Assembly: GCA_017935025.1 (NCBI GenBank)
Contig: JAGBIL010000044.1
Location: forward strand, 1 to 64,000
From: Opitutales bacterium
GTDB taxonomy: Bacteria > Verrucomicrobiota > Verrucomicrobiia > Opitutales > UBA953
DNA: 64,000 nt
Direction of reading: 5' to 3'
Within the stretch, counting starts at the first letter, position 1. Every line of letters starts with the position of its first letter. This document shows, piece after piece, positions 9,238 through 54,285 of the stretch. The notes under the pieces were generated by a model. That model did not search any database and was not told the DNA's origin. It saw nothing but the letters and a program-made list of their open reading frames with translations. The position numbers and the translations under genes were made by a program.

Positions 9238-9873
9238 ATGAAAATGATTAAGTTGTTATTCGCGACGGGAGCTCTCTTGTCGGGCGGAGTGCTCTTCACA
9301 AACGCGCAGGAGGTCGATACTACCTCCGCTTCGCAAAAAAGCTCCGAAGTAACGAGTGCCGTTTTGGATATCCTTCAGACGAATGATTACGGTTACCACG
9401 ATTCTCTCACCGATTCCCGTCTGAGTACCGACGCTTTCGGATTCATTTGGGGAAGGACATCTGTGTTCAACGCACCGTGGATCTTTGATTCCATTAGGTT
9501 TGAGGTAAAATTTCGCCTTGATTCGATAGTCCCTCCGCCGGAGGAGTCCTACGGAATCCGCTACCTTGGCGGGGACGGGAATGAGGTTAAAGGGGAGGTA
9601 GAATTCCTCGAAAACTACAATATTGATCTTACCGGGCAAAACCCGACGGTAATCTCGTATAAATTTGATACTCCACAGGTATGGGCTGTCGGCGAAAGCA
9701 AAATCCTCATGACCATCATCGACCCGAGAGCCGGGGCGTTTGCGGATGTCCGGGCCTCTCTTTATTATGGGGATGAAGTTGCCTCTCTTGTGGTTCCCGA
9801 GCCGTCTGCTTTCGGTATGCTTGCGGGGCTTGGGGCGCTGGCGCTCGTTGCCGCTCGCCGCCGCCGCAAATAA
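9238..9873 (+). CDS. PEP-CTERM domain surface protein
   Basis: A 211-residue protein with a cleavable signal peptide (about residues 1-24, ending FTNAQ) and a C-terminal VVPEPSAFGMLAGLGALALV followed by AARRRRK. This Pro-Glu-Pro, hydrophobic span, Arg-rich order is the sorting signal recognised by exosortases, which cleave it and export the protein to the cell surface. The body is a beta-rich domain of unknown role with several Asp/Ser/Thr-rich loops. It does not closely resemble the paralogous pair at 24.7-27 kb. No Shine-Dalgarno sequence is visible before the ATG. Confidence 0.9.
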   Translation: MKMIKLLFATGALLSGGVLFTNAQEVDTTSASQKSSEVTSAVLDILQTNDYGYHDSLTDSRLSTDAFGFIWGRTSVFNAPWIFDSIRFEVKFRLDSIVPPPEESYGIRYLGGDGNEVKGEVEFLENYNIDLTGQNPTVISYKFDTPQVWAVGESKILMTIIDPRAGAFADVRASLYYGDEVASLVVPEPSAFGMLAGLGALALVAARRRRK

Positions 9874-17119: not shown

Positions 17120-18325
17120 ATGAAACAGATGCTAAACAAACTCGCTATCTCCTTCGTTTTTGCAGGTGTCGCCGGAACTGCTTCCGCCGGCACGGCTCTC
17201 GTTGCGCTTCCCACTCTCGGGGAAGATGCCGGGATTCACGGCTTGCTGAATGCTTCCGTCGCGTACAATGACAATATCTACCTTTCCGAAACCGACGAAG
17301 ACGCGGATACGATCTTCACGATTTCTCCGGGCTTGGAGTTCTCCACAGGGAGCGAAGCTCGTAGCCGAATGAGCCTTCGTTTTGTCGAAAACATCCTGTT
17401 CTACATGGATGAGACTGATAATAACCGTGCACTTGAGAACATCGACTTTCTCTTCTCTCACGGCGGCGAAGGACAGAAACTCAAACTTACGGTTTCTGCC
17501 GGCTTCCACCACAATCAGTCCGCAAGCGGTCGCGACACTTACACGAAGGGAACGATGACGCGTTCGTACAATTACTACGCGAACGGGATCGTTTCCTACA
17601 AGCTCGGTGAGAAAATGTCTGTTCGCAGCGGTTTTAAATGGTCTGGATTGACCTATCAAAACAGCTCCGCGAAATTCTACTACAACGATCGCCAGCAATA
17701 TTCCATCCCGTTGTACCTCTACTACGCGGTGACCGAAAAACTCAACGCCGGTCTCTCGGCGGAATATCGCTATGTCGACCTCGCAACCAGCGGCTGGAAT
17801 CGCCAGCGCGAACTTTCTGCGGGGATGGAGCAGGTTTGGTTCTTCGGTCTTTCCGCCGAAGGTAATGCCTGGGAAAAGCTTTCCCTTAACGGGCGTATCG
17901 GTGTAACGACTTCGGACTACTCTCGCCGCACGATTGACAACCTCGACGGGAAAGACACTTTCGGGATGTCCATTACGGCGGATTACCAGGTAACGGAAAA
18001 ACTCTCCTCGGCATTGACGTTGAACCGTGACTTTGAGCTCGGCTCTGCGGCTGAAGGCATCCTCGCAACGGGTGCTACGCTTTCCGCCAACTATCGCATC
18101 GACGATTTTTGGTCTGCTAATGCAAGCCTCGGATACCGTCTCGACGATTATCGCTCTTCCGCTCGTGAAGACGATATCTACAAGGCGTCCGTCGGCGCCT
18201 CTTACGCTATCAACGAATGGGCGAGCGCCTACGCGAACTACTCTCTCGCGATTGACGACTCCAACCAGAAAGGTTCGGACTACACGAATAACATCGTGAC
18301 GGTCGGTGTTTCTCTCCGCTACTAA
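17120..18325 (+). CDS. Outer-membrane beta-barrel protein of an exopolysaccharide locus
   Basis: A 401-residue protein with a Sec signal (about residues 1-23, ending TASAG). Then come long alternating strands rich in Tyr, Asn and Ser, for example VAYNDNIYLSETDEDADTI and DFWSANASLGYRLDDYR, ending in a C-terminal aromatic strand (VTVGVSLRY) that suits barrel assembly. It resembles the putative beta-barrel porin (BBP2-like) proteins of exosortase-linked exopolysaccharide loci; the neighbours, a Wza-like and a Wzc-like gene, support this. Role in polysaccharide secretion across the outer membrane is inferred. Confidence 0.82.
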   Translation: MKQMLNKLAISFVFAGVAGTASAGTALVALPTLGEDAGIHGLLNASVAYNDNIYLSETDEDADTIFTISPGLEFSTGSEARSRMSLRFVENILFYMDETDNNRALENIDFLFSHGGEGQKLKLTVSAGFHHNQSASGRDTYTKGTMTRSYNYYANGIVSYKLGEKMSVRSGFKWSGLTYQNSSAKFYYNDRQQYSIPLYLYYAVTEKLNAGLSAEYRYVDLATSGWNRQRELSAGMEQVWFFGLSAEGNAWEKLSLNGRIGVTTSDYSRRTIDNLDGKDTFGMSITADYQVTEKLSSALTLNRDFELGSAAEGILATGATLSANYRIDDFWSANASLGYRLDDYRSSAREDDIYKASVGASYAINEWASAYANYSLAIDDSNQKGSDYTNNIVTVGVSLRY

Positions 18326-18389
18326 GCGGAGAGAAAAGCTCTTTCGACGGTTTTCGTGGTGCTGAAACAGAAAGCAACACTCGTTTGAG

Positions 18390-19028
18390 ATGAAATCAAA
18401 TTTTTTGATTCGAGCCGCGATGATTTTTGCGGCTCTTTTCTTTTGCCTCGGTTTTTCCGCGTGCAAAACTACGCGGGGCCCTGGAGCGTATCCAGATTCG
18501 GCAGTTCGCGACGACGGACCGGGAACGCAAGATTACCGTATCCGCCCATTGGATACGTTGCGTTTTGAGATGTATGCGGAGCCGGATAATCGCGGAGAAT
18601 ATCGTGTATCCAAGGAAGGCAATATCACGCTGAACTTCATCGGACAGGTTTCCGTTGACGGGAAGACACTTGCCGAGTTGAAGGAGTACATCGAAAAGCG
18701 TTACCGCGATGACGGGTTCTATACTAATCCGCAGGTTACGCTGACGGTCATTGCTTACGCCGAACGTCGCATTTACGTTTCCGGATTTGTCGCAAGTCCC
18801 GGTCCGGTTCTGATTCCGATTGAAGAGGAATTGACTTTGGGCAAGGCGATTGATGCCGCTCGTGGTGTTTTGCCGCGCGGCTCCCGAACGGATGTGAAGG
18901 TTACGCGGACGAAAGACGGTGTTATTCGTACCTGGGAAGTGGACCTGAAAGCGATCCAGGAAGGCTACGAGCCGGACTTTCCGCTTGAAGAAGGCGACCG
19001 TGTTTACGTTCCGGACAGCGCTATTTAA
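18390..19028 (+). CDS. Wza-like polysaccharide export lipoprotein
   Basis: A 212-residue lipoprotein (signal ending LGFSAC, acylated Cys25). After a short linker comes the polysaccharide biosynthesis/export domain (YRIRPLDTLRFEMY, with VSKEGNITLNFIGQV). An SLBB beta-grasp domain follows (RRIYVSGFVASPGPVLIPIE to FPLEEGDRVYVPDS). It is shorter than E. coli Wza (about 380 residues) and has no clear C-terminal amphipathic helix, so the separate barrel upstream may form the outer-membrane passage. No Shine-Dalgarno before the ATG. Part of the three-gene export set. Confidence 0.88.
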   Translation: MKSNFLIRAAMIFAALFFCLGFSACKTTRGPGAYPDSAVRDDGPGTQDYRIRPLDTLRFEMYAEPDNRGEYRVSKEGNITLNFIGQVSVDGKTLAELKEYIEKRYRDDGFYTNPQVTLTVIAYAERRIYVSGFVASPGPVLIPIEEELTLGKAIDAARGVLPRGSRTDVKVTRTKDGVIRTWEVDLKAIQEGYEPDFPLEEGDRVYVPDSAI

Positions 19029-19067
19029 TCGTTGTATCGGGAGACTTAACTAAAAAACTTTTTTATA

Positions 19068-21347
19068 ATGGCTAATTTAGAAGATAGAGAGCCTGCCGTC
19101 GATAATACCGTCCCGGGGCAACAGCCCACGGGGCCGGGCTACGGTTACGGCTACAACGGTAATTACGGAAGCGGCTACGGCTCCGGATACGGTGAAGCTC
19201 CGAGCTTTTCCGATATGATGCAGACGCGCACGCTTTCCGACTGGATCGCGATGTTCCGCGAGCGTATTTGGTATTTGATTCTTTCCGTGTTCGTTGTCGT
19301 CACGGGAACGCTCATTTACACCTACAACGTCGTGCCGGAATATACGGCATCCGCGCGCCTTCGTGTTTTGAAAAACGCTGTTCAGGCTGCGCCGGGTAGC
19401 GGAGCCAATACGACGTCGCTCGATGCGATTTCCGGGCAGGAAGACTTTCAAACGCAACTCGAAATCATGCGTTCGGGAACGATTGTGAAGCGTGTGCAGT
19501 CGCGCTTGACCTCGCCGGAATTGACGGAAGTCGTTCGTCCGTATCAGGGCGGGAACGTGTTCTCCGGTCCGCTCACTCCAACGGAGGTTATCGCGAAGCA
19601 CCGCAATGTCATTCCTCAGAAGGCGACGTTTATTGCGTTTGTCGAATACACGCATCGTCGTCCGGAAGTCGCCGAAAAGCTCGCGAACTATTTCGCTGAA
19701 GAAATTCAGAAATATAATTCCGAAGACCGTGCCAACCTGACGAGTCCCGTTATTGAGTCGACGCGTGTTCAGATTGAGCAGATGGAGCACACGCTCGCAC
19801 AGCAGCGCGAAGAGCGCAATTTGCTGATTAAAAACGAGCGTTTGCTGACGACGGAAATGGGCACGGCGAATGCCGAACTTTCCAGCGTTATCGCCGTTCG
19901 CGATACGGAACGCAAGAATTACGAAGACGTCCTTGCGATTCGTAACGAAATTCAAAAAACGAAAGAAGCGGGTCTTTCGCTTCTCTCCCAACCGGCGATT
20001 ACGAGCAATCAACTCGTCGCGACTTTGCTCCCGCGTGTCGCGGACTTGCGCATTTCGATTACGGGACTTCTCGAAAAGTACGGGAAGAATCACCCGACAC
20101 TGATTGCGCAAACCCAGCAGCTCGAGCAGGCTGAAGCCGAGCTCGCGGAAGCCGTGAAGAAAGCGGAAGCGGAATTCGATTCCAACTTCGTTGCGGCGAA
20201 GCGCCGTTATGAATCCGCGCAGAAACGTGCGGAAGAAAAAGAAGCTCAGCTTGTGCGCCTACGCGATGCGATTTCGCACCTTTCCGCTCTCGACAAGAAG
20301 ATTCTTCTGAACGAAGAATTGCTTCAGCGCCTGAAGTTCAACTTGGAGGACTTGAAAATGCGCGTTATCGGCTCGGTTTCGTCGATTGTCAGCATTCTCG
20401 ATCCCGCAGTTGTTCCGACGCGTGCGTCCAATAAAAACTTTGTACTGAACGCGATTTTCGGTGTCGTTGCCGGGCTCGCCATCGGTTCCGGGATTATTGT
20501 TCTTCTTTCGTTCTTTGACGATCGCATCAAGTCGACTCGCGACATTGAAAGTTTCCTCAATATTCCGCTCTTGGGTACGATTACGCAGCTTCGCCACATA
20601 AAATCTCCGGTGGATAAAGCGTGCGTCGTTTCCAACGGAAAGGATCGCGGAGCCACGGAAGCGTTCCGTGCGGTTTATTCCGCTTTGAAAATCGGGGAAC
20701 AGTCCCGCCTCGCGAAAGTTTTCCTCGTTACGTCGACGATGCCGTCCGAGGGGAAAACGTTTGTTTCGACAAACCTTGCGCAGACTTACGCCGCTCATGG
20801 TGATCGTGTTTTGGTTCTGGACGCGGACTTGCGTTTGCCGAATGTCGGAAATTCCCTCGGCCTGGCCAAAGACGAACGCGGTTTGACGCGCTACATGGAA
20901 GGCTCAATGACGCTGGACGAAGCGATTATCCGCGATGTTCGCCCGAATTTCGATGTGCTTCAGGTCGGCGCTTACTGCAAGAACCCGACGCAAATCATCA
21001 ACAGCCAGAAGTTCCGCGATATGCTCGAAGAGCTCAAAACGCGCTACGACCGTATCGTTGTCGACACGCCGCCGATCGGTGCCGTTTCCGACGTTTTGAA
21101 CCTCTTGCCGCTTTGCGACGGTATTGTTTACACGGTTCGCTTCAATACGGTTCAGCGCACGATGATCAAAAACAACCTGCATCGCATCCAGGAATCCAAG
21201 GTTCCGGTGTTCGGCGCAGTCATGAACCAGATGGTTCGCGAAACGGCTCGCTACTACGTCAGCTCCGGGCAGTACGGGATGTATTCCAAGTATTACCACT
21301 CGGCGCAGGCGAAAGAAGTCGAAGTTCAAATCGACAAAAACGCGTAA
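19068..21347 (+). CDS. Wzc-like polysaccharide co-polymerase with BY-kinase domain
   Basis: A 759-residue protein. The first 55 residues are a Gly/Tyr-rich cytoplasmic tail (GYGYGYNGNYG and repeats). Two transmembrane segments (about 70-90 and 460-485) flank a long coiled-coil periplasmic part with a Wzz domain. The C-terminal bacterial tyrosine kinase has Walker A (SEGKT near residue 560), Walker A' (VLVLDADLRLP near 585) and Walker B (RIVVDTPP near 662). A terminal Tyr cluster (YYVSSGQYGMYSKYYHS) is the usual autophosphorylation tail. It controls chain length and export with the Wza-like protein. Glycosyltransferases and a flippase/polymerase are not in the window. Confidence 0.92.
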   Translation: MANLEDREPAVDNTVPGQQPTGPGYGYGYNGNYGSGYGSGYGEAPSFSDMMQTRTLSDWIAMFRERIWYLILSVFVVVTGTLIYTYNVVPEYTASARLRVLKNAVQAAPGSGANTTSLDAISGQEDFQTQLEIMRSGTIVKRVQSRLTSPELTEVVRPYQGGNVFSGPLTPTEVIAKHRNVIPQKATFIAFVEYTHRRPEVAEKLANYFAEEIQKYNSEDRANLTSPVIESTRVQIEQMEHTLAQQREERNLLIKNERLLTTEMGTANAELSSVIAVRDTERKNYEDVLAIRNEIQKTKEAGLSLLSQPAITSNQLVATLLPRVADLRISITGLLEKYGKNHPTLIAQTQQLEQAEAELAEAVKKAEAEFDSNFVAAKRRYESAQKRAEEKEAQLVRLRDAISHLSALDKKILLNEELLQRLKFNLEDLKMRVIGSVSSIVSILDPAVVPTRASNKNFVLNAIFGVVAGLAIGSGIIVLLSFFDDRIKSTRDIESFLNIPLLGTITQLRHIKSPVDKACVVSNGKDRGATEAFRAVYSALKIGEQSRLAKVFLVTSTMPSEGKTFVSTNLAQTYAAHGDRVLVLDADLRLPNVGNSLGLAKDERGLTRYMEGSMTLDEAIIRDVRPNFDVLQVGAYCKNPTQIINSQKFRDMLEELKTRYDRIVVDTPPIGAVSDVLNLLPLCDGIVYTVRFNTVQRTMIKNNLHRIQESKVPVFGAVMNQMVRETARYYVSSGQYGMYSKYYHSAQAKEVEVQIDKNA

Positions 21348-27172: not shown

Positions 27173-27347
27173 GCACGCAGATTCGCGCCGATTAGCGCGG
27201 ATAAGAAGCGCGGGAACGCAAAACCTCTCACGGCATCACGAAGGCACGGAGCCTGATTTGAGGTTGGGAATTGTAAATTCCGTGTGTTCCCGTGGTTAAG
27301 AAACTTCGTGTGTTCCACGGGAGCGACAGGAGTGTCGTGTCTCCCGT
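27173..27347. repeat. Partial leader repeat, copy C, and dispersed hairpin
   Basis: Bases 27173-27230 repeat the first part of the leader (GCACGCAGATTCGCGCC to CTCTCACG), then diverge. A hairpin of the GAGCGACA...TGTCG type lies at 27317-27347. The remaining gap to nuoJ (27348-27462) holds one copy of CGTTCCCGC and no gene. Confidence 0.75.
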
Positions 27348-27462
27348 AAATAAAAACGCTGCGGCTCTATGTCTTTGTGAGAAGTTTTGCGTTCCCGCAG
27401 AGGGGTGTGAATCTTCTTTTTTCTTTCGCTTGCGGGCAGAAAGGTTTACAGTTGAGGCACTT

Positions 27463-28014
27463 ATGGTTGATACTTTGTTCTACCTTTTTGCTACACTGAC
27501 TTTGGTAAGCGCCTCCCTTGTGGTGACGAACCGCAAGCCTGTGAATAGCGTCGTTGCGATGATTGTTACGATTGTCGGCGTGGCGGCGAACCTGTTTCTG
27601 TTAGATGCTCCGTTTTTGGCGACCTTGCTGATTATGGTCTATGCCGGAGCAGTGATCGTGTTGTTCCTTTTCGTCATTATGTTGATGGATCCGGATGTCC
27701 CCGCATTAAAGCGCGGCTGGTTCGGGACGGCCCTTGTCGGCGTAGTGTTTTTCGCGCTTTGTGCGGCGGGAACGGTTTGGCTGTTCGGTTTTTCCGGTGC
27801 GGTTCCCGTGATTTCGGCTCCGACGGAAAATATGCCGGCGGCGCTTGCTTACTCGAATGATGCGACCGCGTTCGGCTGGCCGCTGTTCACGAAGTACGTT
27901 GTTTTGGTCGAAGCGTCTGCGCTTTTGTTGCTTGCGGCGATGGTCGCCGTGTTCATGTTGCATTCGCGTCGTCGCGGGAACGAAGAATCCTGCGGTTGCT
28001 GCTGCAAAAAGTAA
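27463..28014 (+). CDS. nuoJ: NADH-quinone oxidoreductase subunit J
   Basis: A 183-residue protein from the ATG at 27463; an upstream in-frame start at 27292 runs through repeat sequence. Five hydrophobic segments, with ATLLIMVYAGAVIVLFLFVIML in the third, the NuoJ signature around the pi-bulge helix. The last residues are Cys-rich (EESCGCCCKK), which is unusual and unexplained. First of five nuo genes in the usual J-K-L-M-N order; the peripheral-arm genes and nuoA/H are not in the window. Confidence 0.93.
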   Translation: MVDTLFYLFATLTLVSASLVVTNRKPVNSVVAMIVTIVGVAANLFLLDAPFLATLLIMVYAGAVIVLFLFVIMLMDPDVPALKRGWFGTALVGVVFFALCAAGTVWLFGFSGAVPVISAPTENMPAALAYSNDATAFGWPLFTKYVVLVEASALLLLAAMVAVFMLHSRRRGNEESCGCCCKK

Positions 28015-28038: not shown

Positions 28039-28338
28039 ATGACTTTATCTCATTTTCTTGTTCTTGCCGGTTTGCTGTTCGGCATCGGGTTGACGGGTGC
28101 CGTGGTGCGCCGCAGCGTGCTCGTCGTTTATATGTCTTTGGAAATGATGCTGACGGCATCGATGCTTGCGCTGGTCGCGTTTTCCAAATACTGCAACCTG
28201 ATGGACGGGGCGGTGTTTTGCTTCTTCATTATTACGATCGCGGCGGCGGAAGTTGCCGTCGGCTTGGCACTGATTGTTTCTCTCTTCCGTAAGCGCAAAA
28301 CGGTGGATTTGGACGATTTGCAATCTCTGAAAAACTAA
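28039..28338 (+). CDS. nuoK: NADH-quinone oxidoreductase subunit K
   Basis: A 99-residue protein with three membrane spans, the standard size. It has the NuoK sequence GIGLTGAVVRRSVLVVYMSLEMMLTASML with the membrane glutamate (SLEMM), and a second Glu in AAAEVAVGLALIVSLFRK. Both acidic residues are known to be part of the proton path. It starts 24 bases after nuoJ, with AGGGAAA upstream. Confidence 0.96.
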   Translation: MTLSHFLVLAGLLFGIGLTGAVVRRSVLVVYMSLEMMLTASMLALVAFSKYCNLMDGAVFCFFIITIAAAEVAVGLALIVSLFRKRKTVDLDDLQSLKN

Positions 28339-28351
28339 AATTTCTTTCGAC

Positions 28352-30271
28352 ATGGATAACGAAACCTTGCTTCGCGTGATTTTGCTCACGCCGCTTGTGG
28401 CGGCTGTCGTCTCGGCGTTTTTCTTTCGTCGTTCCCGCGTGATTGCTCCCGTGATTTCGGTAACGGCCGCGGGCGTAATTCTTTTTGCTTCGCTGGCGCT
28501 TTTGCTCGGACTTGAACCTGCGAATCCGACGGCGAGTGCGACGCTTCCGGGTTTTGCGCTCGGCGGTTTTACCGAGCTTGAAACGATCGGGCTTTCCGTG
28601 GATAAAAACGGGGCGGCGATGCTTTTCGTCGTAACGTTTGTCGCGTTTTGGATCCACGTTTTTTCCGTCGGATATATGGACGACGATAAGGCGCGCGGGC
28701 GTTTCTTTGCGGGCTTGAGCGTGTTTATGTTTTCGATCCTCGGGATCATTCTCGCGAACAATCTTTTCATGACGTTCATTTTCTGGGAACTCGTCGGTTT
28801 CAGCTCCTATATGCTGATCGCGCACTACTGGAATACGGACTACGCGGCGATGGCATCGAAGAAGGCGTTTATTGCGAACCGTGTCGGCGACCTCGGCTTC
28901 CTCGTCGGGATTATCCTTTGTTACGCGCAGTACGGAACGACGAATTTCGCGGAGTTGGAAGCGTTGATTAAGAGCGGCGAAATGACGGTTACGTCGATCG
29001 GGCTTCTGCTGATGTGCGGCTTCCTCGGAAAATCCGCTCAGTTCCCGTTGCACGTTTGGCTGACGGACGCGATGGCGGGACCGACGCCGGTTTCCGCGCT
29101 CATTCACGCGGCGACGATGGTCGCGGCGGGCGTGTTCTTCATGGTGCGTATTTTCTTCCTGCTCACGCCGGAGGTGCTGACGACGATGCTCTGGCTTTGC
29201 GCGGGCATGGCGGCACTCGGCGGGCTTTGTGCTCTCGGGCAGACGGATATTAAAAAGTCCCTTGCGTATTCGACGCTTTCGCACCTCGGATTTATGGGCG
29301 CGGCGATCGGGCTCGGCTTGCCGGAAATCGCTCTGCTCCACATGGCGATGCACGCGTTCTTCAAGGCGACGCTGTTTCTTTGCTCCGGTTCCGTCATTCA
29401 CGCCTGCCACCACGAGCAGGATATGACGAAGATGGGCGGCTTGCTGAAAAAAATGCCGATTACGGCGGCGGCGTTCATCGTTGCCGGACTTTCGATTTGT
29501 GCGTTCCCGTGGATGGCAGGTTGGTATTCCAAGGATATGATTTTGTCCGGCGCGTATTTGGCGGGGAACATTCCCGCATTTGTTGCTCTTGTGGTTGCCG
29601 CAATCGGAACGACGCTTTACACCGGACGTATGTTCGCGATGGTGTTTCTCGGAAACGCTCACGGACACGGCGCGGAACACGCGAAGGAATCTTCGGTTTG
29701 GATGACGCTTCCGCTCATCGTTTTGGGCGTGATTTTCTCGCTCGGTGCCGGCTGGTTTCTCGCGGGAACGAACGGTATTTCCTGGCTCGGAGGAAAAATG
29801 AATGCGCTGTTTCCGACGGTCGCGACGGAAGCGTTTGCGCACGGTTATCACGACTTGCACGACAAGCTCGCGGCGGCGGGATTGGTGGCTCCGATGTTTA
29901 TTCTCGGCGTGGTGATTTTGGTTGTCGGTCTCGGGCTCGCCGTGGTTTTTTACCGTACGGCTACGGGCGAAGACAAGTTGCGCGAATATTCGCCGACGCT
30001 CTACAAGGCGCTTGAATATCGCTACATGGATACGCTCTACGCGTGGTACATCGAAAAAGTTCAACAGCGTTTTGCGATGTTGGTGGCGATGCTCGATACG
30101 GCGTTGGTCAATATGTTGGCAATGCGCGGAGTGGTTGCGGGCGTCCCCGCGATCCTCGGATCGGTTTCCCGCCGCTTTGTCCAAAACGGGAACGGAAGCA
30201 TTTCCGTGTTTTGGATTGCGCTCGGGGCGTTGGCGGTTGCCGCCGCCTTGGTCTCCGGGGTGCTTTCGTAA
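28352..30271 (+). CDS. nuoL: NADH-quinone oxidoreductase subunit L
   Basis: A 639-residue Mrp-antiporter-like subunit. NuoL signatures include FWELVGFSSYMLIAHYWN, KAFIANRVGDLGFLVG, FLGKSAQFPLHVWLTDAMAGPTPVSALIHAATMVAAGVF and HAFFKATLFLCSGSVIHA. The C-terminal 90 residues form the long lateral helix and a final membrane span (YMDTLYAWYIEKVQQRF...). It is one of the three proton-pumping channels of complex I. It starts 13 bases after nuoK without a Shine-Dalgarno. Confidence 0.97.
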   Translation: MDNETLLRVILLTPLVAAVVSAFFFRRSRVIAPVISVTAAGVILFASLALLLGLEPANPTASATLPGFALGGFTELETIGLSVDKNGAAMLFVVTFVAFWIHVFSVGYMDDDKARGRFFAGLSVFMFSILGIILANNLFMTFIFWELVGFSSYMLIAHYWNTDYAAMASKKAFIANRVGDLGFLVGIILCYAQYGTTNFAELEALIKSGEMTVTSIGLLLMCGFLGKSAQFPLHVWLTDAMAGPTPVSALIHAATMVAAGVFFMVRIFFLLTPEVLTTMLWLCAGMAALGGLCALGQTDIKKSLAYSTLSHLGFMGAAIGLGLPEIALLHMAMHAFFKATLFLCSGSVIHACHHEQDMTKMGGLLKKMPITAAAFIVAGLSICAFPWMAGWYSKDMILSGAYLAGNIPAFVALVVAAIGTTLYTGRMFAMVFLGNAHGHGAEHAKESSVWMTLPLIVLGVIFSLGAGWFLAGTNGISWLGGKMNALFPTVATEAFAHGYHDLHDKLAAAGLVAPMFILGVVILVVGLGLAVVFYRTATGEDKLREYSPTLYKALEYRYMDTLYAWYIEKVQQRFAMLVAMLDTALVNMLAMRGVVAGVPAILGSVSRRFVQNGNGSISVFWIALGALAVAAALVSGVLS

Positions 30272-30295: not shown

Positions 30296-32209
30296 ATGAA
30301 CTGTGGATCCTCTCTCTTGCAAGTTGCCGTTGCCGCGCCGCTCGTCGCCGCGCTGGTGATGGCGTTTTCGAAATGGCTTCCGTGTGCCGCGAAGAAGGCG
30401 GTTGCGGGTGTCGGATTTGTCGTTCCCGCGTTGGCGGCGCTCGCGCTTTGTTACGCGTTCCCGTGCGCGGAAAAAATCGGCGGTTACGCATTTTATTCCT
30501 CGTGCGAAACGATCGGCGTGCCGTCGCTCGGGATTTGGCTTCAATTCGGATTAAACGGTATTTCGCTTCCGCTGTTTCTGATGGCGACAATTGTCGGACT
30601 TGCGGCGGGCTTGCGCGCGATTGCGACAAAGGGAGTTGCCCAGGGCGGACTTTACTACGCGGTAACGCTGGTGATGTTCGGCGGCGTGCTCGGCGTGTTT
30701 TCCGCGATTGACGTTTTCTCCTTCTACATTTTCCACGAATTTGCGCTGATTCCGACCTTCGTTGCTATTTTGCTCTGGGGCGGTTACGCGCGCAAAACGA
30801 CGGCGATTACGATGGCGATTTACCTGACGCTCGGCGCAATGGTTTCGCTCGCCGGGCTGTTCGCTCTCTATTTCGCGGGAGCGGGTGCCGGAGAATACGG
30901 CTTCAGCTTCCTCGGTGTTGCGCAGGCGGTTGCCGGCGGGATTGTGCTCGACGGGAACGTCTCCGTGATTTTTGCACTCTTGCTTTTCGGTTTCGGGATT
31001 CTGGTTTCACTGTTTCCGTTCTATTCCTGGGCACCGGACACTTATTCGGTGGCACCGACTCCGATTTCGATGCTTCACGCCGGGGTGCTGAAAAAATTCG
31101 GTCTTTACGGCTTGATTCAGCTCGGTGCGCTTGCGCTCCCGCTCGGTTTGGCGGATTGGCAGAATTGGATTATCTGGCTTGCGCTCGGTAATATCGTGCT
31201 CATCGGTCTGATTACGATGGTGCAGAAGGACTTGAAACAAATGGTTTCTTACAGCTCTGTGATGCACATGGGGCCGATCTTTCTCGGAATTGCGGCGTTT
31301 GCGATTTCCGGCGGCGATACTGCAGGGCTCGGCGGCGCGGTTGTGCTGATGTTCGCTCACGGGCTTTCGGTCGCGCTTCTGTTCCACCTCGGGCAATCCG
31401 TTTACGATCGCACGGGAACGTACGATATGACGAAAATGGGCGGGCTGACGGCGAAAGCTCCCGTGCTTGCGGCGTTCTTTGTCGCGGCGACGATGGCGAG
31501 CATCGGTCTGCCGGGCTTTGCCAACTTCTGGGGCGAACTCACGATTTTCACTTCGCTGGCGCAAATTCAGCCGACGTGGTTGCTCGGCGCGATTGTGCTT
31601 TCTATCGTAATTTCCGCGATTTACGGACTCCGTGCCGTGGCGAAAATATTCTACGGGAAAAATACCGGGGCAGCGCTTTCGGACGAAGCTTTTGAAAACG
31701 TGCGCGATATCACGACCGCCGAGCGCGTTCCCGCGATTGTTCTTTTCGCGGCGTTGGTCGCCGTCGGTTTCGTGCCGTCTTTGATTACGAAAAACATCGA
31801 TGCGACGCTGAAAGCGGACTTCGCACCCGCGGCAAAGGAACTTTGCGCGGACTGCGATAGCGTTCCTGCAGAAACGGACGTTGATACGATTATCCTCGAA
31901 GGCTCGATTCCGGTCGAAGTTCCCGCCGATAACTGCGAAGCCTGCGGCGGAAATGCGGAACAGGTCGTCCTTGCAAAAAACATTACGGTTTCCGTTGACG
32001 GTGCCGTCGGCAATCCCGGCGATTTTGTTTTGAGCGGCGATGATGCCACCTTGCTCAAAGTTTTGGAGCAGGCGGAAGTGGACGAGGAGGCGACGTTTGT
32101 TGTCGTACTCCGCGTGCGCGCGCGCATTCCCGTGGACATCGAGGAACTCCGTAACGGCGACGTTGACGATATTCCGCTCGAAGACGGCGATAAAATTTCT
32201 GTCGAATAA
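30296..32209 (+). CDS. nuoM: NADH-quinone oxidoreductase subunit M with C-terminal CxxC/SLBB-like extension
   Basis: A 637-residue protein; residues 1 to about 510 are NuoM (14 spans; HEFALIPTFVAILLWGG, FYSWAPDTYSVAPTPISMLHAG, KDLKQMVSYSSVMHMG). About 125 residues follow that NuoM normally lacks. These hold two CxxC pairs (Cys517/520 and Cys547/550). A segment, residues 561-637, then looks like an SLBB beta-grasp domain: VDGAVGNPGDFVL, LLKVLEQA, VPVD-like IPVDIEELRNGD, and IPLEDGDKISV. The frame is continuous and no start follows the NuoM part. By standard NuoM topology the tail would face the periplasm. Function of the tail is unknown. AGGAAGG precedes the start. Confidence 0.95.
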   Translation: MNCGSSLLQVAVAAPLVAALVMAFSKWLPCAAKKAVAGVGFVVPALAALALCYAFPCAEKIGGYAFYSSCETIGVPSLGIWLQFGLNGISLPLFLMATIVGLAAGLRAIATKGVAQGGLYYAVTLVMFGGVLGVFSAIDVFSFYIFHEFALIPTFVAILLWGGYARKTTAITMAIYLTLGAMVSLAGLFALYFAGAGAGEYGFSFLGVAQAVAGGIVLDGNVSVIFALLLFGFGILVSLFPFYSWAPDTYSVAPTPISMLHAGVLKKFGLYGLIQLGALALPLGLADWQNWIIWLALGNIVLIGLITMVQKDLKQMVSYSSVMHMGPIFLGIAAFAISGGDTAGLGGAVVLMFAHGLSVALLFHLGQSVYDRTGTYDMTKMGGLTAKAPVLAAFFVAATMASIGLPGFANFWGELTIFTSLAQIQPTWLLGAIVLSIVISAIYGLRAVAKIFYGKNTGAALSDEAFENVRDITTAERVPAIVLFAALVAVGFVPSLITKNIDATLKADFAPAAKELCADCDSVPAETDVDTIILEGSIPVEVPADNCEACGGNAEQVVLAKNITVSVDGAVGNPGDFVLSGDDATLLKVLEQAEVDEEATFVVVLRVRARIPVDIEELRNGDVDDIPLEDGDKISVE

Positions 32210-32229: not shown

Positions 32230-33786
32230 ATGTTTCAAGGTGCTTCAACAATGGATTCGGTCGTTGAATTTTATAAGGCATGGCAGCCGGATTTGAACAC
32301 GCTCTACACGTGTTTGCCGGAAATTCTGCTCGGCGTGCTTGCGTTGCTCGCATTGGTTTTTGACGTTGCGTGCAAGAGTTGCGCGGCGAAACGTGCGGCG
32401 CGCGGTTTTATCAGCGCGGCGTTGGTGGCGATGTTTATTTGTGCGATCGGCGGGGCGTTCCCGTCGCCTGCTCCGGAAGCGATTATGGCTCCCGGGCTGT
32501 TTTTCTCGTTCGGAAAAATTTCGATTTGGTTGGTGCTGTTTATCGCGTGTGCGTTTTTGGCAATCAATCTTTCCGGAATTGTGCGTTCCCGTGAGGGTAA
32601 TGCGGAAATTTCCGCTCCCGCGACAACGCATCTGATTCTGATTGCGACGGCGGCGGCTTCGTTGCTTTTGAAGGCGACGAATTTCGTGGCGTTTTTCGTG
32701 TTGCTTGAAACGCTTACGGTTTGCCTTTACGCGCTTGTCGGTTCGAATCGCAACAGCGCGTATTCGCTGGAAGCCGGCGTGAAATACCTGATTGCGGGCG
32801 GCATTTCCGGAGGTTTGATGCTTTTCGGCATCGTGTTGCTTTACGGCGGCGCGGCTATGTCCGGCGCTCCCGTGCTTACGGGGGAGCCGCTCAGTTACGG
32901 AACGGTGTTTGTCTTCCTTACGCAAAATCCGGAAAGCCTGCTCGGACTTGCGGGAGCCGGCTTGGTGCTCGCTGGCGTGATGTTTAAGCTCGGCGTGTTC
33001 CCGATGCAGTTCTGGATTCCCGATGTTTACCAGGGAGCGCCTTCGCATATAACGTTCTTCCTCGCGACGGTTTCCAAGGCGACGGGATTTTTCCTCGTGT
33101 TTCCGATGCTTGCCACGTTTAGCCCGATTTGGGGAAAACTTTTGCCGGTCTTGCTCGCGTGCGCGCTGGTTTCTATGGTTTATGCCAACGTGACGGCTCT
33201 CGGTATGCGCAATGTAAAGCGCCTGCTCGGTTTGTCGGGCGTTTCGCACGCGGCGTACCTGATGGTCGGCGTGCTCGGCGCGTGGCAAGTAACATCCTCC
33301 GGAAACGCGGAAATGGCGGCGCCCTGCATTACGTTGGTCATTGCCTACATCGTTGTTTACATTTTGACGATTTATCCGATTTTTTCGGTGATGTCGCGTA
33401 TGCCGCAAACGAACGATGCGTTGCAAAACCTTGATGACTACGAAGGGCTTTCCAAGAATAATCCGTTGCTTGCGGGAACACTGGCGTTCGGTCTCGGTTC
33501 TCTTGCGGGAATTCCGCCGACGGTTGGGTTCATCGCGAAACTCGGGATTTTGTTCGTGCTCTTTCAAGCGGGCTTCTATGGCACGATTGCGGTGATGCTC
33601 GGTTGCGTCGTCGTTAGCATTTACTACTATTTCGGCTGGTTCCGTGCGGCGTTTACGGGCGGAGAAAATGCTCCGGCGAAAACGTATCTTCCGGTCGGGC
33701 TTTGTTCCCGCGTGGTGCTGATTGCGTTTTCCGCGCTGATGGTGCTGGCATCGCTGGGCTACTGGGGCGTGATTCGCGGACTCTGA
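32230..33786 (+). CDS. nuoN: NADH-quinone oxidoreductase subunit N
   Basis: A 518-residue subunit, last of the J-N set. Signatures: YALVGSNRNSAYSLEAGVKY, GVFPMQFWIPDVYQGAPSHITFFLATVSKATGF (lysine in the membrane), RNVKRLLGLSGVSHAAYLMVG and LAGIPPTVGFIAKLGIL. A second ATG at 32251 is possible; the N terminus before it is not conserved. Followed by a terminator at 33813. Confidence 0.96.
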   Translation: MFQGASTMDSVVEFYKAWQPDLNTLYTCLPEILLGVLALLALVFDVACKSCAAKRAARGFISAALVAMFICAIGGAFPSPAPEAIMAPGLFFSFGKISIWLVLFIACAFLAINLSGIVRSREGNAEISAPATTHLILIATAAASLLLKATNFVAFFVLLETLTVCLYALVGSNRNSAYSLEAGVKYLIAGGISGGLMLFGIVLLYGGAAMSGAPVLTGEPLSYGTVFVFLTQNPESLLGLAGAGLVLAGVMFKLGVFPMQFWIPDVYQGAPSHITFFLATVSKATGFFLVFPMLATFSPIWGKLLPVLLACALVSMVYANVTALGMRNVKRLLGLSGVSHAAYLMVGVLGAWQVTSSGNAEMAAPCITLVIAYIVVYILTIYPIFSVMSRMPQTNDALQNLDDYEGLSKNNPLLAGTLAFGLGSLAGIPPTVGFIAKLGILFVLFQAGFYGTIAVMLGCVVVSIYYYFGWFRAAFTGGENAPAKTYLPVGLCSRVVLIAFSALMVLASLGYWGVIRGL

Positions 33787-51102: not shown

Positions 51103-54100
51103 ATGGCAAATAAAGCTCCGGCCGAAAAGGGCACGAAATTCGTTTACGAATTCGGCAAGAAAACTGACGGGAACGCGCAAATGCGCAATTTACTTGGCGG
51201 GAAAGGCGCCAACCTCGCTGAAATGGCGCGCATCGGTTTGCCGGTGCCTCCGGGTTTCACTATCAGCACGGAAGTTTGCACGTACTACTACGCGAACAAG
51301 AAAACGTATCCGAAAAGCCTGATGGCAGACGTGCGTTCTGCCGTTTCCAATATCGAAAAGCAGCTCGGAAAAAAGTTCGGCGACGCATCCGGATTCCCGT
51401 TGCTCGTCGCTGTTCGTTCCGGAGCCCGCGAATCAATGCCGGGCATGATGGATACGATCTTGAATCTCGGTCTGAACGACGAAACGGTCGAAGCGCTCGC
51501 CCGCGTAACGAATAATGAACGTTTCGCGTGGGACTGCTACCGCCGCTTTGTTCAGATGTACGGCGACGTCGTACTCGGGGTTCAGAAGCTCCCGAATGAA
51601 GACCACGAGCCGTTTGAAACCGTTATTCATGACGTGAAAACCGAAATGCTCGAAAAACCGAATGCGAGCGATACGGAGCTTGGTGTCGTTGAACTTCGCG
51701 AGCTTGTTTTCCGCTTCAAAAAGCTGATTAAGGACCGCACGGGCAATGATTTTCCGACGGATCCGTGGAAGCAGCTCGAAGGGGCGATCGGAGCCGTTTT
51801 CGGTTCATGGATGAACGAGCGTGCCATCATCTACCGCCAGAAATATCACATTCCGTCCGACTGGGGCACGGCGGTTAACGTACAGTCGATGGTCTTCGGG
51901 AACACGGGCGACAAGTCCGGTTCGGGTGTTGCGTTTACGCGCGACCCCGCAAGCGGCGAAAAGGTTTTCTACGGAGAATTTTTGATGAATGCGCAGGGCG
52001 AAGACGTTGTTGCCGGTGTGCGCACGCCGGATCCCGTCGCCCGTCTCGCCACGGTCATGCCTCCGGCGCACAAGCAGTTGCTCTCAATCTGCAAAACGCT
52101 GGAAAACCATTTCCGCGATATGCAGGACTTTGAATTTACGATTGAAGATTCCAAAGTCTTCATGCTTCAAACTCGCAACGGTAAGCGCACGGGTGTTGCG
52201 GCAATCCGCATTGCGTGCGAAATGGTGCGCGAAAAGCTGATTGACTGGAAAACTGCAGTGCGCCGCGTTCCCGCAGATCAGCTCGACCAGGTTCTGGCTC
52301 CGGTGTTTGACCGCAAGGCGCTCAAAGGCGCAAAGGCGATTGCGCACGGGCTTCCTGCCGGCCCCGGTGCGGCTTCCGGAAAAGTTTACTTCAATGCGGA
52401 GCGTGCGGAAGCGGCCGCGGCAAGCGGCGAAAAAGTTTTGCTCGTGCGCCTCGAAACCTCTCCTGAAGACTTGCGCGGCATGATTGCGGCGGAAGGTATT
52501 TTGACAGCGCGCGGGGGCGTTTCTTCGCACGCGGCGCTCGTCGCCCGCCAGATGGGTAAGGTCTGTGTCAGCGGGGCTTCCTCCATTGATATTGACTATG
52601 CCAACCGCACTCTTTCTGTCGGAGATATTTCGGTTAAGGAAGGGGAATGGATGAGCATTGACGGGACGACCGGAGATGTGTTCCTCGGTCAGATTGCAAC
52701 GGCACCCAGCGATGTCATTCTCGGCGTTGTCCGCGGGAACGAAGAAGCCAAAAAGACGGCGACGTACAAAAACTTTGCCCAACTGATGGCATGGTGCAAA
52801 AAGGTAACGCGCCTCGGTGTACGCACGAATGCGGACGCGCCGTCGCAGACCGCCGTTGCCGTCTCGTTCGGAGCGCAGGGGATCGGTCTTACCCGCACGG
52901 AGCATATGTTTTTTGAAGGAGATCGCATCGATTCCGTTCGTGAAATGATTCTCGCAACGGATTTGGAAGGACGCCGCGCGGCTGTGAACAAGTTGCTTCC
53001 GTATCAGCGCGGAGACTTTGAAGGCATTTTCCGCGAACTCAAAGGTTTGCCGGCAACGATCCGACTGCTCGACCCGCCGTTGCACGAATTTCTCCCGCAG
53101 ACGAAGGAGCAGCAACTCGACCTCGCGAAAAAACTCGGCGTTCCCGTGGAACATATTCAGCGTCGCGTCGCGGAACTCCACGAGTTCAACCCGATGCTCG
53201 GACACCGCGGGTGCCGCCTCGGAATTTCCTATCCGGAAATTACGGAAATGCAGGCGCGTGCGATTTTCGAAGCGGCGGCGATTTGCTTGAAGGAAAAAAT
53301 CCGTGTCGCGCCGGAAGTGATGATTCCGCTTGTCGGCTTTGCCGCGGAGTTCAAAAATCAGGCGGAAGTCGTACTCCGTGTCGCCGCAGAAGTGATGGCG
53401 GAAAAGAAAGTGAAGATTTCTTACAAGGTCGGCACGATGATCGAAATTCCCCGTGCTTGTGCAACGGCGGACAAGATCGCGGAGAACGCGGAATTTTTCT
53501 CCTTCGGAACAAACGATCTGACGCAGACTTCGCTCGGGATGAGCCGCGACGACTCCGGCTCTTTCCTCGGTGATTACACGAATTTGGAAATCGTGAAGTG
53601 CAATCCGTTCGCCTCCATTGATCAGGAAGGTGTCGGTGCCATGATGAAGCTCGGTGTTACGCTCGGGCGTCAGGCGCGTCCGGACATTAAGCTCGGTATT
53701 TGCGGTGAACACGGCGGAGATCCCGAATCCGTCAAGTTCTGCCATCGCATCGGTTTAACCTATGTCAGTTGCTCTCCTTATCGTGTGCCCACGGCTCGCC
53801 TTGCGGCGGCACAGGCTGCGATTGAGGAGGAAATTTCGTTAACCCAACCCAAAACTAATCCTATGGCTACAGCAAAAACCACGAAGAAACCGGTCGCCAA
53901 GAAGGCTCCTGCAAAGAAGGCGGCTCCGGCGAAAAAAGCTCCGGCGAAGAAGTCGGTAGCGAAGAAGACGGCTCCGGCGAAAAAACCGGTCGCCAAGAAA
54001 GTTCCGGCGAAGAAAACGGCTCCGGCAAAAGCGGTTGCCGTAAAAAAAGCTCCGGCGAAAAAGGCTGCCGCTCCGAAAGCCCCGGCAAAAAAAACTGCCC

Positions 54101-54285
54101 CGGCGAAAAAACCGGCTGCTAAAAAGGCTCCCGCCAAGAAAGCGGCTCCGGCAAAAGCGGTTGCCGTGAAAAAAGCTCCGGCGAAGAAGGCGGCTCCCGT
54201 GAAAAAAGCTCCGGCGAAGAAAGCGGCCTCCGCTAAGAAAACCGGGTGCTGCAAAAGCAAAAAAGCCTGTGCGAAGAAAAAATAA
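51103..54285 (+). CDS. ppdK: Pyruvate, phosphate dikinase with C-terminal histone-H1-like tail
   Basis: A 1060-residue protein. Residues 1 to about 905 are full-length PPDK: ATP-grasp N-terminal half ([20 protein letters not shown]), phosphohistidine domain ([15 protein letters not shown], catalytic His476), and the TIM-barrel PEP/pyruvate domain ([10 protein letters not shown], catalytic Cys867 in [11 protein letters not shown]). After [13 protein letters not shown] an in-frame Met921 begins a 140-residue Lys/Ala/Pro tail of KKAPAKKA-type repeats ending in [15 protein letters not shown]. It resembles bacterial histone-H1-like proteins, including those of Chlamydiae. The frame is continuous with no stop between. 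Alternatives are an internal start at 53863 giving a separate DNA-binding protein, or a lost stop codon. Confidence 0.93.

Follow-up and report, generated by a model that had tools for sequence, protein, structure and literature searches.

In Escherichia coli, the tails of NuoB, NuoI and NuoF and a loop of NuoG are clade-specific extensions in the peripheral arm that stabilize complex I (PMC8357420). In bacterial complex I, the clade-specific additions that I found in the literature sit on the cytoplasmic arm, and the SLBB domain of NuoF/Nqo1 is likewise cytoplasmic. SLBB domains possess hallmark glycines near strand 1–2 and after the helix, and the strand 4–5 connector and strand 5 have been proposed as a region of ligand contact in the superfamily (PMC1796856). 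In the Wza-like OPX proteins, the periplasmic SLBB domains are predicted to touch the sugar polymer (PMC9603273).

The window (the whole stretch of 64,000 nucleotides that was analyzed) encodes complex I subunits in the order nuoJ-K-L-M-N:

27292..28014, + strand: nuoJ (Oxidored_q3)
28039..28338, + strand: nuoK (ORF, and synteny in genomes of the genus)
28352..30271, + strand: nuoL, without an extra tail (ORF, genus comparison)
30296-32209, + strand: nuoM ORF, 637 amino acids
32230..33786, + strand: nuoN, starting 20 bases after the nuoM stop

The same genome (G000) encodes NuoB, D, E, F, G, H and I elsewhere, and therefore has a normal NADH-type complex I with its genes split over several loci; the nuo genes form separate clusters (BCD, EF, GHI and JKLMN) on contigs C15, C19, C20 and C25, and JKL and MN are further separated in the sister genomes described below as tail-less. 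This NuoM shares with the NDH-1 NuoM/ND4 family (TIGR01972) its core, the 14 transmembrane (TM) helices, the single copy and the nuoL and nuoN flanks, but is ~130 C-terminal residues longer, as the NuoM sequences of relatives compared end at about residue 500–546. The match to TIGR01972 covers residues 8–506, with 315.5 bits against a curated cut-off of 263.8; Proton_antipo_M (PF00361) spans the antiporter core, and all 14 TM helices are predicted in the AlphaFold2 model. Residue E148 in TM5 is invariant in an alignment of 25 NuoM sequences, and by position it would be the counterpart of the functional Glu144 in E. coli. Each genome of the genus encodes one full-length NuoM, the second match in G000 being NuoL; therefore, where NuoM has the tail, every complex I must carry it. 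The parts of the nuoM frame are as follows:

30296..31813, + strand: core, residues 1–506 (TIGR01972, Proton_antipo_M, AlphaFold2 model)
31814..31987, + strand: tail linker, residues 507–564 (alignment, dN/dS, model)
31844..31855, + strand: first CxxC (C517, C520), not conserved (alignment)
31934..31945, + strand: second CxxC (C547, C550), CExC in all five tail-bearers (alignment)
31988..32206, + strand: SLBB-like domain, residues 565–637, divergent, of OPX/Wza type (profile and permutation comparisons)

The tail thus comprises residues 507–637 (31814-32206), beyond the end of TIGR01972. An earlier note on this DNA had described a frame running ~125 codons past the normal NuoM end, and ~131 extra residues are indeed found. 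The genus sample consists of eight Opitutales genomes, whose named records include Opitutales bins from goat and sheep rectum, a Verrucomicrobia bin and Candidatus Spyradosoma merdigallinarum. An in-frame tail devoid of stops is present in G000, G005, G007, G003 and G002, whose whole NuoM sequences are 97% (G005), 87% (G007), 86% (G003) and 78% (G002) identical to that of G000, and its length differs among these five species only by in-frame changes. It is absent from G001, G006 and G004, where NuoM stops at residue 520–543. The earlier note had suggested looking for the same extension in other Verrucomicrobiota: four more genomes of the genus have it. Among the matches listed for 388 genomes sampled from the phylum, no further NuoM reached past residue 532, and a profile search across 373 genomes of the order returned no additional NuoM tails. 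Long NuoM frames in G216, G203, G087, G075, G012 and G033 proved to have their extra open frame elsewhere, mostly upstream, and a 578-codon match in G280 is an ordinary multi-SLBB export protein.

Pairwise dN/dS is 0–0.37 for the SLBB-like part and 0.10–0.39 for the linker (0.02–0.16 for the core), and the tail, linker and domain together, is under purifying selection. The window comes from a draft genome of many contigs, and the earlier note had named a frameshift error behind the fusion as one finding that would refute its reading. The identical frame, however, recurs in five assemblies that are separate and stem from different samples; because of this, and because the tail is under purifying selection, such an artefact is excluded for practical purposes, its probability being negligible. 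In a tree of the NuoM core, the five tail-bearers form one clade (support 100/99), and a single gain at the base of this clade would be the simplest history. This single origin on one branch, the fast evolution of the linker, and the fact that the genus adds other C-terminal tails, for example on pyruvate phosphate dikinase (PPDK), would all suit a passive fusion, in which the end of an OPX gene was joined once and has been kept since it folds harmlessly, with no specific role. I consider this unlikely, as the tail is under purifying selection and has been lost in none of the five species, despite high synonymous divergence between distant pairs.

The PPDK just mentioned (51103-54285) has a ~135-residue Lys/Ala-rich tail resembling the histone H1-like protein HC2, with an E-value of 7.5e-9 to PF07382, under the cut-off. 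The PPDK alignment runs into this tail in G005, G003, G007 and G001, and the G002 match ends before it. Several other proteins of the window (at 9238, 24589, 26127, 43205 and 59111) possess PEP-CTERM-like ends of the form PEPSAFG...RRRR.

The earlier note had also proposed that a segment of the tail is SLBB-like and parallels a Wza-like gene at 18390, in the same window:

18390..19028, + strand: Wza-like OPX lipoprotein, Poly_export (PF02563) and one SLBB (Pfam, profile comparison)

The SLBB domain of this protein, at 18771-19010, is the homologue of the tail within the window. Searched alone, the tail matches SLBB_2 (PF22461) over residues 565–636 (E=9e-4, 19.7 bits, for a cut-off of 27), and all five tails match it, the best with E=1.6e-4; the scores of 19.7–21.3 bits (E 9e-4 to 3e-4) are below the Pfam cut-off. 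Aligning a profile of the tail to one of OPX SLBB domains with hhalign gave 74 columns at 97.9% probability and a score of 68.5, where the best of 150 column shuffles reached 22.7 and a reversed profile 12.6; some of the OPX rows in this comparison had been found with the tail profile, and were hence selected. In single-sequence permutation, Z is 8.8–14.7 for the tail against OPX SLBB domains, and 8.8–11.2 against that of the window's own gene alone. The SLBB of NuoF, although from the same superfamily and the same enzyme complex, shows a weak and partial likeness (34 columns, 4.6% probability, permutation Z of 3.1–6.7 for that stretch), and is unlikely to be the source of the tail. These scores indicate that the proposed parallel is correct, and that the last ~75 residues share homology with the SLBB domain of Wza-like OPX proteins, their relation to that of NuoF being clearly weaker.

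The features of the domain itself are mixed. Its full-length profile alignment, the PLE(D/E)GD...V end and the periplasmic location are shared with the OPX/Wza SLBB (PF22461/PF10531), as is a helix that is predicted to lie between strand 4 and strand 5. In the GxVxxPG motif near strand 1–2, both glycines are invariant in the five tails, and the proline is not. The second hallmark glycine, within the sGG after the helix, is missing from every tail, which have QAEVD, LAKAD or QTKID in its place, and the flange around it is also lost in all five. AlphaFold2, run with five sequences, gave a pLDDT of 39.5 for the tail alone and of about 49–72 for the tail inside full-length NuoM. The low-confidence elements are strands at 562–569, 575–580 and 600–607 and helices at 586–592 and 615–619, a predicted beta-beta-alpha-beta-(alpha) pattern; a beta-grasp has five strands, with a helix between strands 2 and 3. 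A structure search with this low-confidence model gave no meaningful match, and a search of PDB sequences with the tail gave none. As the tail falls below the Pfam cut-off, misses the second glycine and has its fold predicted at low confidence, these comparisons place it as an SLBB-derived, divergent domain, not as a full SLBB member in good standing. It further differs from OPX proteins in being joined to a respiratory subunit and in having no Poly_export domain (PF02563).

In the Wza-like gene the SLBB is C-terminal, and the NuoM tail ends at the equivalent position within the domain, as would be the case if a copied OPX 3′ end had been placed behind nuoM. I therefore infer, as a putative origin, that nuoM acquired at its 3′ end a copy of the 3′ part of an OPX gene. 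As for the donor, this genome's own Wza-like gene is unproven, because OPX SLBB domains from a different family within the order have slightly higher scores. The gene belongs to a cluster (17120-21347) encoding a beta-barrel, the class-3-like OPX lipoprotein and a Wzc-like ATPase, which fits the pairing of OPX and beta-barrel proteins (PMC9603273).

The side of the membrane on which the tail lies was considered from the distribution of charges. Alternate loops of NuoM contain 12 and 1 Lys/Arg, and with the 14 helices of the model both termini fall on the poor side. By the positive-inside rule the tail is thus placed in the periplasm, as the earlier note had anticipated for its extra domain, and the known topology of NuoM agrees with a periplasmic C-terminus. 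The tail is acidic, with 31 Asp/Glu and 8 Lys/Arg.

The interaction with the envelope that the earlier note had raised is possible. Since the SLBB domains of OPX proteins are predicted to touch polymer in the periplasm (PMC9603273), ligand binding is possible for the tail as well. The domain could then retain a putative OPX activity and, by binding an OPX partner, exopolysaccharide or peptidoglycan, hold complex I at a site in the envelope. Among SLBB domains, the homology points specifically to those of OPX proteins, and the OPX/Wzc/beta-barrel cluster lies 9–13 kb from nuoM in G000, G005 and G003; against this, the cluster is about 54 kb away in G007, the SLBB is one lone copy, and the second hallmark glycine and its flange are gone from all five tails. 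I regard such a tether as rather unlikely, and an actual physical link between complex I and either the cell wall or the polysaccharide machinery of the envelope, through an OPX-type SLBB on NuoM, as more doubtful still. Loss of the second glycine would mildly favor a structural over a ligand-binding role. Conservation within the domain is highest in the strand 4–5 connector and strand 5, where 16 of the last 21 positions are invariant; ligand contact in SLBB domains has been proposed for this region, and its conservation counts against the accessory reading favored below.

The linker is variable, but retains an IIL strand (predicted at 531–538) and the CExC pair. The earlier note had seen in its cysteines, Cys517/520 and Cys547/550, a domain that might be redox- or metal-linked. 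Both pairs are present at these positions, but only the second is conserved: the first is CADC in G000 and G005, CxxxC in G007 and G003, and missing in G002. No thioredoxin-like or other redox family was identified in the tail with Pfam, and none of the eight genus genomes has a match to DSBA, Thioredoxin_4 or VKOR, so that a disulfide made by an enzyme is not the first reading to suggest itself; with one conserved pair, the link drawn from two is not supported, and apart from the motif no observation speaks for a redox function. C547/C550 may possibly be a reduced or metal-bound pair.

Cysteine motifs also occur in other subunits of the same clade. A cluster at the NuoJ C-terminus (..ESCGCCCKK, 27991-28011) is kept in the tail-bearers and absent from the tail-less sisters, as is a CxxC that lies within the first NuoN loop (32371-32382, and also in the L067 nuoN); NuoN has up to 18 cysteines (in G002), for 3–5 in the tail-less sisters. 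A sample of 311 genes served as cysteine background. Short Cys-rich C-termini are also seen in GlgC and PPDK of G000, the GlgC-like protein (L089:10133-11452) ending in ..CDCACDAKK. A cysteine system across complex I was considered and rejected, as the NuoJ and NuoN motifs track the tail but lie, by charge, on the opposite, cytoplasmic side, and as unrelated proteins are Cys-rich too.

A putative site at C547/C550 alone, binding a metal such as Zn or acting as a thiol switch, would be in keeping with the invariance of CExC inside a variable linker, with the gain of Cys motifs by NuoN and NuoJ, and with the missing DsbA and VKOR, which may leave the pair reduced. I nonetheless judge it improbable: each tail has two conserved cysteines only and no redox fold, the cytoplasmic motifs cannot share a site with the tail pair, and the Cys-rich ends of GlgC and PPDK extend the trend to unrelated proteins.

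The reading I favor, to which I give about an even chance, is that of a clade-specific accessory domain fused to the sole NuoM of a complex I that is ordinary in other respects. The domain would pack against the membrane arm (NuoL/M/N) on its periplasmic side, or dock a nearby envelope protein, and the complex would thereby be stabilized or positioned; a role of the domain in proton pumping or in electron transfer would not be expected. The E. coli extensions of NuoB, NuoI, NuoF and the NuoG loop are also lineage-specific additions to core subunits and serve as the precedent (PMC8357420), but these are short, extended and cytoplasmic, whereas the NuoM tail would be a folded domain of the membrane arm, on its periplasmic side.

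A search of the open-access literature found no paper treating NuoM and SLBB together. The tail is real and conserved, and it appears to be an undescribed addition to the complex I of a narrow lineage of uncultured gut bacteria. It would represent a domain of the export machinery recruited into the respiratory chain and, if folded, a periplasmic domain on an antiporter-like subunit would be a new place for a partner of complex I, or for its regulation.
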